Notes under the pieces: generated by a model
What the model saw: only the letters and a program-made list of their open reading frames with translations
Database searches by the model: none
Told to the model about the DNA's origin: nothing
Made by a program: the position numbers and the translations under genes
Source of the DNA: Planctomycetota bacterium
Lineage (GTDB): Bacteria > Planctomycetota > Planctomycetia > Planctomycetales > Planctomycetaceae
DNA: 64,000 bases
NCBI GenBank assembly: GCA_027618475.1
Contig: JAQCEJ010000007.1
Location: 1-64,000 of the forward strand
Direction: 5' to 3'
Shown: piece by piece, positions 9,337-32,426 of the stretch
How positions within the stretch are numbered: the first letter of the stretch is position 1
Layout: every line of letters begins with the position of its first letter

Positions 9337-12300
9337 TTACCGCGTTGTCCCGTCGAGGAGCGACCCTAGGTCGCGGATTTGTTCGTTGTGCCGTTGTAGA
9401 TCGTCCTGCAATTCGTCGACCTTCGACTGGTAACCGAGCCGGCGGGCGAGGAACAGGAATTCTTCACTCTGTGGAGGAGGAACTGTCAAATCCCAGGCGT
9501 TGCCGCGCACCATTCGCAAGGCATCGATCAGATGCCGCTGAAAGATGTAACCGTCGCGCAGTTTTTCGAAGTTGTCTTCCGAAAGAATTCCCGTTGCCCG
9601 CAAGGCATTCATCGCTTTGAGCGTATTCGTCTCTCGTAAGGCCGGATCGCGATGTCCGTATGAGATTTGCAATCCCTGAACGAGATATTCGCAATCGACG
9701 AGTCCCCCTTCGGTCAGCTTCGCGTTGATCGTGCCGGCGGTGACGAGCTGACGCAATTGCCGTTCGCGCATGGCCCGCATCGAATTGACGTCGAAGGGTT
9801 CGCCTGTAAAGACCAGCCTGTCGCGCAGGTCGACGATTTCTTGTCCGAACGCGAGATCTCCCGAGATGGGCCTAAGCTTGACGAGTGCCTGCCGTTCATA
9901 TGGCCAGGCGGGACCATCGGGACGAAAATATTGTTCGAATGCCTCGCGAGCCACGGCGAGACTTCCTGCCCGTCCATAGGGCCGCAGCCGTAAGTCGATG
10001 TGAAAAATCCCTTCGCTGCGCGATTGAATCGCCTGTGAAAACGTTTCGACCAGCTTGATGTAATACTCGGCTGCGGTGATGATTTCGGGACCGGCCGTCT
10101 TGCCGGAATCGTCGTACACGAACATCAATTCGATGTCCGAAGCGTAACCGAGTTCCCGGCCGCCGCATTTCCCCAACGCACAAATGCACAACCGGTTTGG
10201 CATCCCGTTTTCGAGCTGTGGTTGCCCGTAACGCGCGGCGAGTTCGTCGTTGCAGATGCGATATGCAGCGTCGACGGTCGCTTCCGCGACGTCGGTCAGT
10301 TCTTCAGAGAACTCACCGAATTCGTCGACGAGTTCCAGAATGTGCCGCATATCGGTGCGAAACATCTCGCGGTCTTTCCAGGCGTTCAGACACTTTCGTT
10401 TGTCTTCGGGCGACTTGGCGTCGGCGAGATCGTGTTCGAGTCCACTCTCCAGCTCGCTGCGAGGTTTGCGCTGCTTCAGCGCATCGACATCCTTCACGAC
10501 GGGAAATAGATTGTCGTGCTGCAACCTCAAAAAATCTTCCCAGAGGAAATTACTGACCCCCAGCAACTGTGCCAGAGCATCGAGAACCTGCGTGTTTTCG
10601 AGCGATGCGATGTCGGCTACCCAGTCGTCGCGGTCGAATAACTGTTCAAGAAAACCTTGAAACTGCAACAACGCCGTTTCGGGATTGGGAGACCGCGGCA
10701 ATAGATGGGTGAAGTGCTTGATCAGCACGATCGCCGTGCGCACTTCACGCTGTTTTTTGGGGTCGGTAATTTTGTCGCCGAGATGATCGGTCACCCAGAG
10801 CGTATCGTCGATCCTTTTGCCAATGGATTGAATCACCACGCGAACGCTATGGATGCCGCTAATAGCGAGTGCATTTGTCAGTTCATACAAAAATCCGATC
10901 GTATCTTCGGCACGAATGCGGAGCAGCGTGTGACTCGCCGATGTTTCGTTGTCGATCTCGACTTCGACAGGCAATAACGATTCGGGCAAACCGACGGCAT
11001 CGACGACCGCTTCGGCTGCCCGCTTGGCGAGAATTCCCTGAACTTCCTTCCGCTTTCCTTCCTGTTGCATCCGCATCACGTCGCATAAGTCGTCGCGCAG
11101 TCTCATCCAGACGGCATCGGTCTGACGATCGACGGGGGGCTTGACCGTAAATGCGCTGATGAACTTTCCGCGACCGGACAGACTGCGGCCTGACGCTGTC
11201 GGCGTGGCCGCTCCGTCCTTATATTCGTTGCCGGTCGGCAGGACAAACAAATGCCCGTCGACGATGTCGCAACCGTAAATGAAAAGATGGCCGCAGATGA
11301 CGGACAGTTTTCCGGCACAATCGTATCCCACGGTGGTCATGCGCCAGGTGCCGTCGTCGAGTTTTCCGATCGTCACCTCCATCGGGTTGGCATCCGACAA
11401 CCGTTCGAACAACGTGGCGTGATCGCGAATCTCTTCGGGTGAAAAGACCAGCGTGTACGACGGTTCGATGCCGAGCAACGGCGGGGGAAGAGCCGAATCA
11501 TCCTCGGTCGACCGGCTGGGCTTCTGTTCGAGAGGTTCGTCCGTGCCGATATATTTTTCGAAGATCGCACGAATCTGCCGGCAATGCTGACGGTAATACT
11601 GCAGAAACTGTTCGGCGTCAGGGTAATCGAGTCGCCGCGCCAGATACGAGAGTTCTCGATGGTCGTCGGGGAGTGCGTGCACCTGCTTGTAATGCATCAA
11701 CTGCAGCGCATGTTCGATCGTTCGTAAAAAGTGATAGCCGCTCGAAAGAATGCGGTATTCATCCCCCTTGAGATAACCAAAATCGACGAGCCGCACGAGG
11801 GCATCGAGTGTATTGATGCTGCGGACGGCGCGATTTTCGCCTCCGTACCGCAATTGCAGAAATTGGACGACGAACTCGATGTCGCGAATCGAACCTTCTC
11901 CCGATTTGACTTCTCCCCACTTGCGCCCCTGTTTTTCGAGATTCGCTTCGATGTTCTGTTTCATTTCGCGAATATTCCGGCGGACCTGATCGGCCGGAGA
12001 GGAATAAATAATCGGTTCGATCCGTTCGAGAAACCCCTTGCCGACGGCGTACTCTCCCGCGATGACGCGGGCTTTGAGCAAGGCCTGTTTTTCCCAGAGC
12101 ATGCCGTGCTGTCGTAAATAGCCGACGTGGGCATCGACAGTATTAACGAGCGGCCCCGACCTGCCCCACGGTCGCAGCCGCATATCGACGCGGTACATAA
12201 ACCCTTCCATCGTCGATTCCATCAGCGCTTTGATGAGCTGCTGCCCGAGTTTCCAGTATTGGGCCGCATCTTTTTCGACGAGAAAGACGAGATCGATATC

Positions 12301-13002
12301 CGAACTGTAGTTGAGTTCTTCGCCACCCAGTTTGCCGAACGCAAGGACGGCAAAACCGTCCACTGAAAGTTTCATGTCCTGAGCGAGTAGAATCAGACAC
12401 GACTGCACCAGGCTGTCGGTGAGTAGCGACAGCTGCACGGTGATCGACTTCAAATCCATCAGGCCGAACGAATCGCACGCCCCGATGCGCAGCAATTCCC
12501 AATGTTGAAATCGTCGCAGAGCATCAAACTTGGCATCGAGCGTGTAATGTTCGCCCGCGATTTGTTGCGCCTCTTCGACGAACTGCTGCTGGCTCTTGAA
12601 TTCGGCCAGGCGCTTGTGCCGCGTCAGTTTCGCGAGATAACTCGGATTGCGCAGCAGTATTTCGGTAAGAAACTGGCTGCCGACGAACAGTTTTACCAGT
12701 ATTTCAACTGCGCGCGGGTTCTGACTGAGATACAGAAAGAGCTGAGCACGATCGGGAATCGTCTGCACCAGCCGTTCGAAGTTCACTAAGGAACCATCGG
12801 GCGTTGCCGTTTCTGAAAGGGCAATCAACAACGGAGGCATCGACCCGGCCAGAAGCGTTCGACTCTGTTCGTCGGTGCAGAGATCCTGAAATCGCCGCTG
12901 CGCCGCCGGTATATCTGAAAAACCGACTGACTTCAACAGACGATGAATTTCAGGGTCATCCTCGGTATGTGGGTCTAACAGCAGGGAGGATCGCTCAAAC
13001 AT
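9337..13002 (-). CDS. glnE: GlnE-type adenylyltransferase with GlnD-like ACT insert
   Basis: A 1221-residue protein built as two GlnE nucleotidyltransferase halves. The first half has AFGKLGGEELNYSSDIDLVF at about 221-240 and VDMRLRPWGRSGPL at 272-285; the second has ALGKCGGRELGYASDIELMF at about 942-961 and IDLRLRPYGRAGSL at 1002-1015. GlnE attaches and removes AMP on glutamine synthetase; N- and C-terminal halves normally do removal and addition. The family is usually near 950 residues. The surplus is a block at about 515-770 with two ACT-like segments: ICGHLFIYGCDIVDGHLFVL (570-589) and a clear GlnD-type ACT at 691-740 (IRAEDTIGFLYELTNALAIS). In GlnD such domains bind glutamine, so direct glutamine sensing is inferred. 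The ATG at 13002 has a weak AAGAAG upstream. Confidence 0.88.
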   Translation of the reverse strand: MFERSSLLLDPHTEDDPEIHRLLKSVGFSDIPAAQRRFQDLCTDEQSRTLLAGSMPPLLIALSETATPDGSLVNFERLVQTIPDRAQLFLYLSQNPRAVEILVKLFVGSQFLTEILLRNPSYLAKLTRHKRLAEFKSQQQFVEEAQQIAGEHYTLDAKFDALRRFQHWELLRIGACDSFGLMDLKSITVQLSLLTDSLVQSCLILLAQDMKLSVDGFAVLAFGKLGGEELNYSSDIDLVFLVEKDAAQYWKLGQQLIKALMESTMEGFMYRVDMRLRPWGRSGPLVNTVDAHVGYLRQHGMLWEKQALLKARVIAGEYAVGKGFLERIEPIIYSSPADQVRRNIREMKQNIEANLEKQGRKWGEVKSGEGSIRDIEFVVQFLQLRYGGENRAVRSINTLDALVRLVDFGYLKGDEYRILSSGYHFLRTIEHALQLMHYKQVHALPDDHRELSYLARRLDYPDAEQFLQYYRQHCRQIRAIFEKYIGTDEPLEQKPSRSTEDDSALPPPLLGIEPSYTLVFSPEEIRDHATLFERLSDANPMEVTIGKLDDGTWRMTTVGYDCAGKLSVICGHLFIYGCDIVDGHLFVLPTGNEYKDGAATPTASGRSLSGRGKFISAFTVKPPVDRQTDAVWMRLRDDLCDVMRMQQEGKRKEVQGILAKRAAEAVVDAVGLPESLLPVEVEIDNETSASHTLLRIRAEDTIGFLYELTNALAISGIHSVRVVIQSIGKRIDDTLWVTDHLGDKITDPKKQREVRTAIVLIKHFTHLLPRSPNPETALLQFQGFLEQLFDRDDWVADIASLENTQVLDALAQLLGVSNFLWEDFLRLQHDNLFPVVKDVDALKQRKPRSELESGLEHDLADAKSPEDKRKCLNAWKDREMFRTDMRHILELVDEFGEFSEELTDVAEATVDAAYRICNDELAARYGQPQLENGMPNRLCICALGKCGGRELGYASDIELMFVYDDSGKTAGPEIITAAEYYIKLVETFSQAIQSRSEGIFHIDLRLRPYGRAGSLAVAREAFEQYFRPDGPAWPYERQALVKLRPISGDLAFGQEIVDLRDRLVFTGEPFDVNSMRAMRERQLRQLVTAGTINAKLTEGGLVDCEYLVQGLQISYGHRDPALRETNTLKAMNALRATGILSEDNFEKLRDGYIFQRHLIDALRMVRGNAWDLTVPPPQSEEFLFLARRLGYQSKVDELQDDLQRHNEQIRDLGSLLDGTTR

Positions 13003-26977: not shown

Positions 26978-27642
26978 GTGACTGAACGTGACGACACGAC
27001 CTGCAATCGTATTTTGGATGCTGCAGGTGCCGTCTTTGCCGAACATGGCTTTGAAAAAGCCACGGTTCGTGAGATCTGTCGCCGCGCGGGAGTGAACCTT
27101 GCCGCCGTCAATTACCACTTTCGAGATAAGCGTCGGCTGTATGCAGAGACGATTCAACATGCCCACCGTCTGGCAGCGGTGCAGGTTCCGATGCCAAACT
27201 GGAGTCCATCGACTGCTCCGGCCCAAAAGTTGCGGGAATTTATTCGCACGATGATTCACCGTATGCTGGTCGTCAAATTGTTGCCGTGGCAAACACGGCT
27301 GATGATGCGTGAATTCGCTCAGCCGACCGGAGTCTGTCAGGAACTTGCCGAAAATTATATTCGCCCTCATTTTGAAATCTTGCTGGGGATCCTCGACCAG
27401 CTGATTCCGGCGGAAACACCTCCCCATCGCCGTTATAAACTGGGTTTCAGTATTGTCGGTCAATGTATGTCTATCATTTGCATGCTCCGGTCATCGAAAT
27501 CCTCTTACCGCGAGAGACGCTCGCCGAGCACTTTCAACCGGCGCAACTGGCAGAACATGTCGCAGAAGTCATGCTTGCCGCCTTCGATAAAGAACCACTG
27601 TTCAAAGAATCGTTCGTTTCGGACTCATCCTCAAAGAATTAA
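26978..27642 (+). pseudogene. TetR-family regulator, C-terminal frameshift
   Basis: A TetR/AcrR repressor gene. Residues 1-60 form the helix-turn-helix (ILDAAGAVFAEHGFEKATVR, then ICRRAGVNLAAVNYHFRDK). The C-terminal part looks like the CerR/DUF1956 group (GFSIVGQC followed by tyrosine). After GQC the open frame changes: codons from 27473 read nonsense (LRSSKSSYRERRSP), whereas the frame starting at 27475 continues naturally (HLHAPVIEILLPRETLAEHF) to a TAA at 27640-27642. One missing base near 27470-27474 (TCTTATCAT to TCTATCAT) explains this. So it is either a real frameshift or a sequence error. Start is GTG at 26978 behind CGAGGT. The intact protein would be about 221 residues. Confidence 0.75.
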
Positions 27643-27676
27643 GACGCTCGGACAGACGAGTCCGTGGAGTTCATTC

Positions 27677-29080
27677 ATGCATTTTCTTCGATTTCTGATG
27701 ATGGAGATCGTTCGCATTACCGTTCCGGTGGCGCTCTTAGCCGCGGGAATCGCCTCGTTTGTCGTCATTTCGAATCAGCGCAAGGTTCCGGAGCGCATCG
27801 AACGGATCACCGCGATTCCGACGGTCGAAACCGTCGCGGTGGAACTGCACGACAAGGCACTCAACTTCGATGTCGACGGCATGGTCGTTCCTCATCGCGA
27901 GATCAGTCTGTCCGGCGAAGTTCGCGGCCGCATCACGTACAAATCGCCGCTGTGCCGCGCCGGCCGATATGTCAAAGAGGGAGAGGTGTTGCTGCAGATC
28001 GATCCCCGTACGTACGAACTGGATGTCGAACGGATCACTGAAGAGGTGAATCAATCGAACGCCGCGATACGAGAAAACGACATCGAGATTCAAAACACGC
28101 AGGCGCTCATTGAAATCGCCGAAAAGGAAGCGTCGATTCAGCAGCTCGAATTCAAGAAAATCGTAGGACTGGGAGAGCGAAAGGCGATCAGCGAAACGCA
28201 GGTCAGCGAAGCCGAACGGGCCTATCTGGCGGCGAAAAGCAGCCTGACGATCTTGAAAAACCAGTTAAGCACCTACGAAGCCCGAAAACCCAGGCTGGTA
28301 AGCGTTCGCGATCTCGATCAGATTCGACTCGATCAGGCGCAACTCGATTTCGAGCGATCGACAATTCGTGCGCCGATCGACGGAATGGTCGTCAGCGAAT
28401 CGGTCGAAGTCGACAGTTTCGTTCAGCCCGGTACGCCGATGCTGGCGATGGAAGACATCAAAGCGGCAGAGGTGCGCTGCAACTTGCGGATGGAAGAGCT
28501 TGCGTGGTTGTGGCAACAGGATCAATCGGGATCGTCCCCTCCCCAGACGAACAGCCCCGAAAACGATTATCAGCTTCCGAACACTCCCGTGACGGTGACA
28601 TATCGCCTGGAAGATCGAGAGTACCAGTGGAGCGGCGTGTTGAATCGGTACGAAGGAATCGGACTCGACGAAAAAACACGAACGGTTCCTTGCCGCGTTC
28701 TGATCGAAGAACCCCGTTATCATCGGTTGCCGTCGGACATCGAATCGGCTGTTGAGGTCGGTCCGCGTGCTCTCGTACGGGGCATGTACGTACGGGTAAC
28801 CGTTCACGTTCGTCCTCGAAGCCGGCTGTTGCGCATTCCGCAACAGTCGATTCAACCGGGCAACATCGTCTGGAGCGTTCGAGACGGAAAACTCCACCGC
28901 AACGAACTGCGCAATCCTCATTTTCTTGACGAAGTCGCGCTCGTCGTTCCCGAGGCGAACGGATTACAGGCCGGAGATCAGGTCGTTATTACACCGCTGG
29001 CAGCGGCCGCGGAAGATATGGAAGTGACGACAAAACAGACTTCCATGACCGCGTCGATTGGGGAGCTCGTTCATGAATGA
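27677..29080 (+). CDS. HlyD/AcrA-type efflux membrane-fusion protein
   Basis: A 467-residue periplasmic adaptor for an RND pump. It has a membrane anchor (about 12-30), then a biotinyl-lipoyl first half (ISLSGEVRGRITYKSPL, GRYVKEGEVLLQIDPRTYEL at about 100-120), a coiled-coil hairpin (about 125-215) and a lipoyl second half plus beta barrel (FERSTIRAPIDGMVVSESVE near 225-245). It bridges the inner-membrane pump to an outer-membrane channel. The ATG at 27677 has GGAG (27666-27669) seven bases upstream. Because of the frameshift in the preceding TetR gene, the frame here runs back into TetR as one 700-codon ORF, which I do not regard as a genuine fusion. It overlaps the pump gene by 8 bases. 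Confidence 0.85.
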   Translation: MHFLRFLMMEIVRITVPVALLAAGIASFVVISNQRKVPERIERITAIPTVETVAVELHDKALNFDVDGMVVPHREISLSGEVRGRITYKSPLCRAGRYVKEGEVLLQIDPRTYELDVERITEEVNQSNAAIRENDIEIQNTQALIEIAEKEASIQQLEFKKIVGLGERKAISETQVSEAERAYLAAKSSLTILKNQLSTYEARKPRLVSVRDLDQIRLDQAQLDFERSTIRAPIDGMVVSESVEVDSFVQPGTPMLAMEDIKAAEVRCNLRMEELAWLWQQDQSGSSPPQTNSPENDYQLPNTPVTVTYRLEDREYQWSGVLNRYEGIGLDEKTRTVPCRVLIEEPRYHRLPSDIESAVEVGPRALVRGMYVRVTVHVRPRSRLLRIPQQSIQPGNIVWSVRDGKLHRNELRNPHFLDEVALVVPEANGLQAGDQVVITPLAAAAEDMEVTTKQTSMTASIGELVHE

Positions 29081-32000
29081 ACTAATTCGCCGCGCGATCC
29101 GAAATACACCGGCGATGAATACATTGATGTTCTCGCTGATTTTTCTGGGAATATTCTGCCTGTTCAACATGCGGCGCGAGGTTTTCCCCGAATTCGAACT
29201 TGAAATCCTTCTGGTGAATGTGATTTATCCGGGGGCCAGCCCCGACGAAGTCGAAGAGGGAATCTGCCAGAAAATCGAAGAAGCCGTTCGTTCGATCGAA
29301 GGGATCAAAAAACAGACGTCGATCGCCAAAGAAGGATCGGGATCGATCGTTCTCGAATTAAACGTCGGCGTCGATGCCCAAAGAATTCTGGGGGAAGTCC
29401 GTTCGGAAGTCGACCGCATCCCGAGTTTTCCACTGTTGGCCGAAGATCCCGAAGTCGAGCAGATCACACTCCGACAGCCAGCGATCTCGGTGGGTGTCGT
29501 CGGTCCCCGTAAATCACATTCGCATAGCGAACTCGAACTCCGTGAGATCACCGAGCAGGTTCGCGACGAATTGTTGATGCTGCCTGCCGTCTCGCAAGCG
29601 ACGATCGCGGGGGCCAAAGAATACCAGATCGACGTTGAAATTCCGGAAGAGACGCTGCGTCGTTACGGGCTGACCTTGCAGGATGTCGCCCGAAAGATTC
29701 GCCGCGAAAATCTCGAACTTCCCGGCGGCACGATTCGGACCGAATCTCAGGACATTCTCGTCAAAGGGAAAAAGAAAGGCTCGGTCGGACACGAGATCGA
29801 AACCATTCCGCTCATCACGCAGCCGAATGGAACCGTCCTCACCGTGCGCGATCTCGGCCGCGTGCGCGACGAATTTGCTGACATCGAGTCGAGCACTTAT
29901 ATCGACGGACTTCCCGGGATGGCGATTTCCGTCGAACGGACATCCTCAGAAGATTTACTGGCGATGACCGATGCCGTTCACGAATACGTCCGCACGAAAA
30001 TTCTTCCGCCGGGTTATAAACTGGTGACATGGAGCGATCGGTCGGTTGAAGTGCGAGACCGCTTGCGTCTATTGAGCGTCAACGGCGTTCAAGGACTTGT
30101 TCTTGTCCTCATTATGCTGGCACTTTTTCTGAATCTGCGACTCGCCAGCTGGGTGGCTGTCGGCATTCCCTTTTCGATTCTTGGTGCGTGTGCCCTGCTC
30201 TATTTTTCGGGCCATACGCTCAACATGCTGACAACCTTTACGTTCGTCATGGCACTCGGCATAGTCGTCGACGACGCCATCGTGATCGGCGAAAACATTC
30301 ATGCGCATCGACTGATGGGGAAAGGCCCGCTGCAGGCGGCGATCGACGGAACGATGGAGGTCGCCGCCTCGGTAACGGCTTCGGTGGCAACGACCGTTAT
30401 TGCCTTTTTGCCGCTGATGTTCGTCTCGGGAGTGATGGGAAAATTCATTGCCGTGATGCCGGTGGCTATGATCTCGATTCTCGTATTTTCGTTGCTGGAA
30501 GGGTTATTCATTCTGCCGTGTCACCTCGCGCATGAATCGGAGCCGGGTGAGACGGGTCCGTGGAAGACGGCATTTCGATTATACAAACGCATGCCTCGTC
30601 TGTTGCGGTGGACGGTCGGCCCGTTGCTACTGGGAGTGGCGTTCATTCTCGACCAGTTCGTGTATCCGATTCGCCGGTTGAATTCATTTGTCGATCTGCT
30701 GAATCGAGGCACGAATTACGCTGTGGAGTTTGTTGCAGCCCGGTTATATCTGCCGATGCTCCGTGGGTCGTTACATCGTCCCTCAGTGGCATTGTCGGCT
30801 GCTATGGCCCTGTTGTTGATCGCCCTCGGACTGATTCGCGGCGGGATCGTTCCCTTCATCATTTTTCCCAAGAACGACAGCAACACCATTCAGGCGAACG
30901 TTACGTTTCCTGACGGAACGCCGGTCATCGTCACCGACAAGGCCACGAAACAACTCGAAGAAGCGATATTTCAGGTGAACGAGAAATATCGGGAACTCGG
31001 CGAACCTGTTTTGCGGCTGACCCGCCGTTCGGTCGGTTACCTGACCATGCAACAGGGGGCCGGTCCGCAGATGACGTCCAGCGGAGGACACATCGGAGGA
31101 CTGACGGCCGAACTTGAAGATACGTCGATTCGAACAATCGAAAGCCAAAAGATATTGAACGATTGGCGCAAGGTCGCCGGTGAATTTCCGGGGGCCGAAA
31201 GCGTGACATTCGGAGCGTTCGATCATGGTCCCGGAGGGACTCCGATCGAATTCAAATTACTGGCGCGCCGTGAAGACATGGACGACCTGGAGGGCGCTGT
31301 CGACGCGACCAAGCAACGCCTGCAGGAGTTTCCGGGCGTGTTCGACATCGCGGACGATTCGAGCCCTGGTAAATGGGAGTTTCAACTCAAAGTCAAAGAG
31401 AACGCCGTCGCGATGGGGGTTCCCTTACAGGAACTGGCCGAAACGGTTCGTGCATCGTATTTCGGCGAAGAAGTGATGCGGCTGCAGCGCGGACGTCACG
31501 AAGTCAAACTGATGGTTCGTTATCCGCGTGAAGATCGCCGTTCGCTGGCCAAATTCGACGATATTCGCGTTCGAGCCGGCGATTACGCCGAGCGTCCGCT
31601 GTCCGAACTGGCCGATGTCAAAATCGATCGCGGGTACTCCGAGATCAACCGGGTCAATCAGTTGCGTTCGATCACGATTTCGGCGGATGTCGACGAATCA
31701 CAGGCCAACGCGCGCGAAATCGTGTCGGCTTTACAGACACAGTTCATGCCTCAGTTGTTCAAACAATACCCAAACATTTCCGTCCGCTGGGAAGGGCAAC
31801 AAGAGCAGACCAACGAATCGGTCCGCAGCCTGATCATCGGACTGGCCATCGCATTGCTCGCGATGTTCGCGTTGTTGACATTCGAATTCACTTCGTACTT
31901 TCAACCGCTGCTCATTATGGCGATTATCCCCTTCGGCATCGTGGGGGCGGTTTTCGGACACGCGATTCTCGGTATGCCGTTGACGCTGTTCAGCCTGTTC

Positions 32001-32426
32001 GGTCTGGTCACCCTCACCGGCGTCGTCGTCAACGATTCGATCGTGCTGATCGATTTTATTAACCACCGCGTACGCAACGGCGAGCCCTTGCAGACCGCGA
32101 TTCTCGATGCGGGGAGTCGGCGGATGAGGCCGATCTTTCTCACGTCGGTAACAACTGTCGCCGGTTTGTTGCCGCTGTTGTTCGAAACGTCGTTTCAGGC
32201 ACAGATTTTGATCCCGATGGCGGTCAGTATCTGCTTCGGATTGACGTTGTCGACGTTGCTGGTGCTGATCATCGTGCCGACGCTCTACCAGATACACGCG
32301 ACAATGACGGGCGCGTTTGAAGTCACTCCTGTCGACGGGACGTTATCCGAGTCCGACGAAAATCACGATCCGGTGCTGACGGCTTCCCGTCCGCTCGATG
32401 AACCGGTTCACGCCGACGTTTCGTGA
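29073..32426 (+). CDS. RND efflux pump inner-membrane permease
   Basis: A 1117-residue RND transporter (AcrB-like, hydrophobe/amphiphile efflux group). About twelve membrane segments are visible: one near 14-32 and two sets of five or six around 340-520 and 915-1085. The proton-relay motif is GIVVDDAIVIGENI in the fourth segment (about 400-413). Large periplasmic loops (about 40-335 and 560-860) take the substrate. It uses the proton gradient to expel substrates with the HlyD-type partner. Its ATG at 29073 overlaps the adaptor stop (ATGAATGA), showing translational coupling; GGGGAG lies 7 bases upstream. The 3' end overlaps the converging CDF gene by 19 bases. The substrate is unknown. Confidence 0.9.
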   Translation: MNELIRRAIRNTPAMNTLMFSLIFLGIFCLFNMRREVFPEFELEILLVNVIYPGASPDEVEEGICQKIEEAVRSIEGIKKQTSIAKEGSGSIVLELNVGVDAQRILGEVRSEVDRIPSFPLLAEDPEVEQITLRQPAISVGVVGPRKSHSHSELELREITEQVRDELLMLPAVSQATIAGAKEYQIDVEIPEETLRRYGLTLQDVARKIRRENLELPGGTIRTESQDILVKGKKKGSVGHEIETIPLITQPNGTVLTVRDLGRVRDEFADIESSTYIDGLPGMAISVERTSSEDLLAMTDAVHEYVRTKILPPGYKLVTWSDRSVEVRDRLRLLSVNGVQGLVLVLIMLALFLNLRLASWVAVGIPFSILGACALLYFSGHTLNMLTTFTFVMALGIVVDDAIVIGENIHAHRLMGKGPLQAAIDGTMEVAASVTASVATTVIAFLPLMFVSGVMGKFIAVMPVAMISILVFSLLEGLFILPCHLAHESEPGETGPWKTAFRLYKRMPRLLRWTVGPLLLGVAFILDQFVYPIRRLNSFVDLLNRGTNYAVEFVAARLYLPMLRGSLHRPSVALSAAMALLLIALGLIRGGIVPFIIFPKNDSNTIQANVTFPDGTPVIVTDKATKQLEEAIFQVNEKYRELGEPVLRLTRRSVGYLTMQQGAGPQMTSSGGHIGGLTAELEDTSIRTIESQKILNDWRKVAGEFPGAESVTFGAFDHGPGGTPIEFKLLARREDMDDLEGAVDATKQRLQEFPGVFDIADDSSPGKWEFQLKVKENAVAMGVPLQELAETVRASYFGEEVMRLQRGRHEVKLMVRYPREDRRSLAKFDDIRVRAGDYAERPLSELADVKIDRGYSEINRVNQLRSITISADVDESQANAREIVSALQTQFMPQLFKQYPNISVRWEGQQEQTNESVRSLIIGLAIALLAMFALLTFEFTSYFQPLLIMAIIPFGIVGAVFGHAILGMPLTLFSLFGLVTLTGVVVNDSIVLIDFINHRVRNGEPLQTAILDAGSRRMRPIFLTSVTTVAGLLPLLFETSFQAQILIPMAVSICFGLTLSTLLVLIIVPTLYQIHATMTGAFEVTPVDGTLSESDENHDPVLTASRPLDEPVHADVS

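Follow-up and report, generated by a model that had tools for sequence, protein, structure and literature searches.

Nitrogen control has its textbook bicyclic cascade in the relay that runs from GlnD through PII to GlnE. In Escherichia coli GlnE, the N-terminal half is deadenylylating and the C-terminal half is adenylylating. A central regulatory region lies between the halves of the E. coli enzyme (PMC12409994). The ACT domains of GlnD are reported to serve as the part of that enzyme which senses glutamine (PMC3173338, citing Zhang et al. 2010), and glutamine itself reportedly regulates the E. coli ATase (GlnE; Jiang, Mayo and Ninfa 2007, cited in PMC3026816). The glutamine response of E. 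coli GlnE comes without ACT domains. Direct glutamine sensing by GlnE is therefore not new in principle; what would be new is a dedicated ACT sensor. GlnD-like ACT repeats tied to nitrogen metabolism also occur in plant ACR proteins and in the mycobacterial 180-kDa glutamate dehydrogenase, where, unlike in the protein described here, they are not attached to an adenylyltransferase. In the literature outside subscription journals, no paper was found that relevantly connects GlnE with ACT domains, Planctomycetes or Chloroflexi.

The glnE gene described here, glnE-ACT, is located in a stretch of 64,000 nucleotides (the window) from a bacterium of the Planctomycetaceae. An earlier, sequence-only reading had proposed two GlnD-like ACT segments between its catalytic halves and had assumed that GlnE obtains its glutamine signal through PII, a premise that is incomplete in view of the reported regulation of the E. 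coli enzyme.

Architecture of the GlnE-ACT protein

The gene and its parts are located in the window as follows:

9337..13002, (-) strand: glnE-ACT gene, 1221 aa, with Pfam and NCBIfam matches
11551..12825, (-) strand: N-terminal half, residues 60-484, GlnE and GlnD_UR_UTase, motif SSDIDL at 223-238
11062..11382, (-) strand: ACT1, residues 541-647, loop GYDCAGKLSVICG at 559-571
10693..10965, (-) strand: ACT2, residues 680-770, loop AEDTIGFLYELTNAL at 698-712
9367..10635, (-) strand: C-terminal half, residues 790-1212, GlnE and GlnD_UR_UTase, motif ASDIEL at 944-959

Pfam detects GlnE twice (3e-98) and GlnD_UR_UTase twice (5e-37) in the 1221-aa protein, each GlnE nucleotidyltransferase domain being followed by a helical domain of the GlnD_UR_UTase type, which is the arrangement by which members of GlnE are recognized. 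The two complete nucleotidyltransferase motifs expected at about residues 221 and 942 are found as GKLGGEELNYSSDIDL (residues 223-238) in the N-terminal half and GKCGGRELGYASDIEL (residues 944-959) in the C-terminal half. Together with the third acidic motifs, DMRLRP at 271-280 and DLRLRP at 1001-1010, they give both halves the metal-binding acidic motifs that characterize GlnE. The NCBIfam GlnE model PRK11072 is matched with 497 bits, above its cut-off of 487. The N-terminal half matches the E. coli N-domain structure 1v4a (4e-47), and the full-length AlphaFold model matches 1v4a as well as 3k7d, the structure of the E. coli C-domain. The pTM of this model is 0.56, and the domain arrangement, including contacts between the ACT domains and the halves, is therefore not reliably placed. 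By family membership, the protein is a bifunctional glutamine synthetase adenylyltransferase/deadenylylase. It has the halves, motifs, predicted fold and order of the E. coli ATase, and differs from it in that the halves are separated by about 280 additional residues, which contain two ACT domains. A further difference is found in the motif of the C-terminal half (window 10126-10173), which reads SDIEL (D-x-E), whereas ordinary planctomycete GlnE has SDLDL or SDIDV; D-x-E is present throughout the ACT clade and is a signature of it.

The extra block, previously estimated at about 250 residues, comprises about residues 490-770 and occupies the place of the E. coli central regulatory region. Pfam gives one ACT-type match in it, at 681-756 (2.5e-7, above the model cut-off), in agreement with the GlnD-type ACT domain that had been placed at about 691-740. 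The AlphaFold model of residues 505-778 (mean pLDDT 86.6, pTM 0.85) has two ACT-type units, one spanning about residues 541-647 and the other about 680-770. The second ACT-like segment of the sequence-only reading is thus present, although the range given for it (545-590) covers only the first half of ACT1. With significant ACT and GlnD matches and a predicted ACT fold, the block is not an ordinary GlnE linker.

Two GlnD models align with the insert: TIGR01693 matches residues 512-759 to GlnD positions 627-844 of 850 (4e-23), and PRK05092 matches residues 514-759 to positions 701-920 of 940 (9e-29). These alignments span the whole tandem-ACT tail, the last quarter of GlnD. In a profile-profile comparison (hhalign), the insert family matched 21 GlnD tails over 225 columns (99.8%, E 2.7e-30), so the likeness is not due to chance. 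A PDB sequence search with the insert profile gave just a weak ACT match, to an acetolactate synthase subunit (E 0.34), and a comparison of folds was therefore required. In Foldseek, the best matches in the PDB were the ACT region of the mycobacterial 180-kDa glutamate dehydrogenase, SerB2 and plant ACT-like domains. The insert thus consists of two adjacent ACT domains that can be aligned end to end with the GlnD pair and, judged by these alignments, is homologous to the GlnD C-terminus over both domains. The nucleotidyltransferase and UR_UTase domains of the two proteins are also related. On the other hand, the HD uridylyl-removing domain of GlnD was not matched in the protein by Pfam or NCBIfam, and its full-length TIGR01693 score is 81 bits against a cut-off of 519.

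The beta1-alpha1 loop carries the aspartate and glycine of ACT sensor modules in both domains, as D-T-I-G in ACT2 and D-C-A-G in ACT1; some relatives deviate from this. Across 55 proteins, D-x-x-G-F-L of ACT2 and G571 of ACT1 are invariant or nearly so; the ACT1 loop is degraded in some host-family members (L029-L031). The loop that reads D-R-x-G in GlnD reads D-T-x-G in GlnE-ACT, and ligand specificity may therefore differ.

Elsewhere in the window, a single frame at 26978-29080 (+) encodes both a TetR/CecR-type regulator and an HlyD-type efflux adaptor, and an AcrB-type pump (29058-32426) comes directly after it.

Distribution and phylogeny

In a sample of 195 planctomycete genomes, the insert was matched (over or across) in all 21 genomes from the host family and also in a few other families (f6, f28, f39, f47 and f48). 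No insert match was found in the GlnE of the other families of this sample, including f2 and f3 of the host class; these enzymes are mostly about 950-1160 aa long. The architecture is thus not planctomycete-wide, which had been left as a question. A scan of 84,980 species genomes resulted in 511 candidate loci. Among the best 80 of the 511, every locus combines the insert with GlnE parts, and some of these loci are truncated at a contig end; they come from Planctomycetaceae (including Gimesia), Chloroflexota, Calditrichota and KSB1, plus a few other groups. Only 6 of the 201 genomes sampled in the phylum of an Anaerolineales MAG have GlnE-ACT, which is therefore patchy and not universal there. 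In two MAGs (L123 and L134), GlnE-ACT is split over two overlapping frames, and these may be assembly errors.

In a tree of the C-terminal half, built with the insert left out and with planctomycete GlnEs only as outgroup, all ACT-bearing GlnEs are on one side of a 100% branch. In the ACT tree, the ACT domains of GlnE-ACT form one clade apart from those of 20 GlnDs (96%). Because the insert ACTs form this separate clade, a recent copy of the host's own GlnD tail is ruled out as their source. The simplest reading of both trees would be one ancient acquisition of the ACT pair, with later spread or loss. Along the GlnE tree, GlnD changes between presence and absence at least 8 times.

Relay genes in the carriers and one-headed forms

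The single GlnE of the host genome is GlnE-ACT. The search for glnD and glnB suggested by the sequence-only reading found both genes: one PII and one full-length GlnD are encoded in an amtB-glnB-glnD cluster on another contig. This GlnD carries its own ACT and HD domains, and the PII keeps the uridylylated tyrosine (RGAEY loop). The target of GlnE is also present, as the genome has two type I glutamine synthetase (GSI) genes, both with the adenylylation-loop tyrosine (DRDIYDMSPEE and DKDMYDLTPEE). As the cluster is intact, the insert can only supplement GlnD-PII in the host and cannot replace the relay. It had been proposed that the enzyme bypasses or supplements this relay; supplementing fits the host, while bypassing does not and fits the non-planctomycete carriers instead.

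GlnD is present in 28 of the 29 planctomycete genomes with a two-headed GlnE-ACT and absent in 52 of the 53 such genomes outside the phylum. The sole exception is a Spirochaetales MAG (G213, locus L148), in which a divergent glnD (381 bits), PII, glnA and glnE-ACT are all located within 15 kb. The next GlnD score is 77 bits, and matches of this kind are GlnE-ACT itself or shorter frames hitting the HD region. PII matches in the 53 non-planctomycete genomes are strong in 13 (E below 1e-20), weak in 11 and lacking in 29. Carriers are mostly MAGs, and as a control, ribosomal S8 was found in 34 of 37 checked non-planctomycete carriers. A search with PF03710 gave no second GlnE in any of the 37, making GlnE-ACT their only GlnE. 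In about 20 loci, almost all of them from Chloroflexota, GlnE-ACT has a glnA nearby that keeps the adenylylation tyrosine, in the motif D-K-D-L-Y-(D/E/S)-L-P; the Chloroflexota carriers are related and therefore not independent cases. Two planctomycetes (G011 and G012), one of them also without PII, have an ordinary GlnE without GlnD, so a missing GlnD need not be compensated by ACT domains.

Tyr51 of PII was considered as a marker of lost uridylylation. It is absent in three PIIs (G222, G230 and G057), yet kept in six Anaerolineae-type PIIs without GlnD, and is not decisive. The PIIs of four GlnD-less carriers (L150, L153, L154 and L155) have a T-loop without the tyrosine that GlnD uridylylates. 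Weak PII-like domains were also observed inside open frames of ~670-700 aa in several relatives (e.g., G018:C1:358285-358563 and G108:C1:5144014-5144286).

In addition, one-headed proteins have been identified, in which the two ACT domains are followed by a single GlnE half with a C-half-type motif (D-x-E). They occur in three planctomycetes (G057, G082 and G027) and in two genomes (G246 and G323) from the phylum of an Anaerolineales MAG:

L156:1715-4120, (-) strand: one-headed GlnE, tandem ACT and single nucleotidyltransferase half, without the deadenylylating half
L042:914-4186, (+) strand: one-headed GlnE, perhaps ending in the apparent start of a further half
L172:1615-5064, (-) strand: one-headed GlnE, tandem ACT and single nucleotidyltransferase half
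L173:2680-5274, (+) strand: one-headed GlnE, tandem ACT and single nucleotidyltransferase half
L174:2984-5629, (+) strand: one-headed GlnE, with the apparent beginning of another half at its end

GlnD was not found in any of the five genomes, and the three planctomycetes contain no second GlnE domain anywhere. Since the lone half carries the C-half motif, the ACT pair is tied to the adenylylating half. The one-headed form may be ancestral or derived, as the C-half and ACT trees fit either, and it raises the question of the route of AMP removal.

Proposed sensing role and alternatives

GlnE-ACT has been kept in genomes without GlnD and PII, often close to glnA, which argues for an input of the enzyme's own, with the ACT pair as the obvious candidate. 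GlnE-ACT can thus probably read the nitrogen state of the cell by itself. Binding of glutamine or a close amino-acid signal to the ACT pair would shift the balance between the halves, so that glutamine synthetase would tend to gain AMP when glutamine is high and to lose it when glutamine is low. In the host, this sensing would work alongside GlnD-PII. In the carriers that lack GlnD, Chloroflexota and allies, about half of which also lack PII, the nitrogen signal would enter mainly through the ACT pair, and a single protein would do the switching for which the relay needs two steps. It is reasonably probable that a GlnD-type tandem ACT pair was gained once between the halves of GlnE and senses glutamine or a close amino-acid signal there, shifting their balance.

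The ACT pair could instead sense another amino acid or metabolite (e.g., glutamate, glycine, serine or histidine) as a second input, with glutamine being detected in the way E. coli GlnE does it. The ligands of ACT domains include many amino acids, the residue that follows the loop aspartate is not the one found in GlnD, and among solved structures the best matches are ACTs from other enzymes. The closest sequence relatives over both domains, however, are GlnD tails and not other ACT families, and this explanation is considered rather unlikely. Less likely still is a ligand-free structural or docking module, serving dimerisation, the spacing of the halves or PII docking. Its position in place of the E. 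coli central regulatory region and the degraded ACT1 loop of some members would suit such a module, but the columns that are invariant in the family include the ligand-loop positions of ACT2, and PII docking cannot be a general role because 29 of the 53 non-planctomycete carriers have no detected PII. A chimeric assembly or a fusion of neighbouring genes has a negligible probability and is refuted: the same architecture, without internal stops, recurs across the 21 sampled host-family genomes, of which several consist of a single contig, and at every one of the best 80 of the 511 loci, some of these truncated at contig ends.

Returning to amino-acid sensing by the ACT pair, a further-reaching proposal is more tentative, with chances slightly below even: GlnE-ACT would be a self-contained glutamine-sensing switch, used instead of the GlnD-PII-GlnE cascade by many Chloroflexota, Calditrichota and relatives, with leaner one-headed forms in GlnD-less planctomycetes and Chloroflexota. 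If true, a widespread GlnE with a sensor of the GlnD kind would show how the relay can be collapsed into one protein. Some carriers have both GlnD and PII (planctomycetes), some have PII alone and some have neither of the two (many Chloroflexota), so that GlnE-ACT would also offer a clean system in which to ask what the PII step adds.
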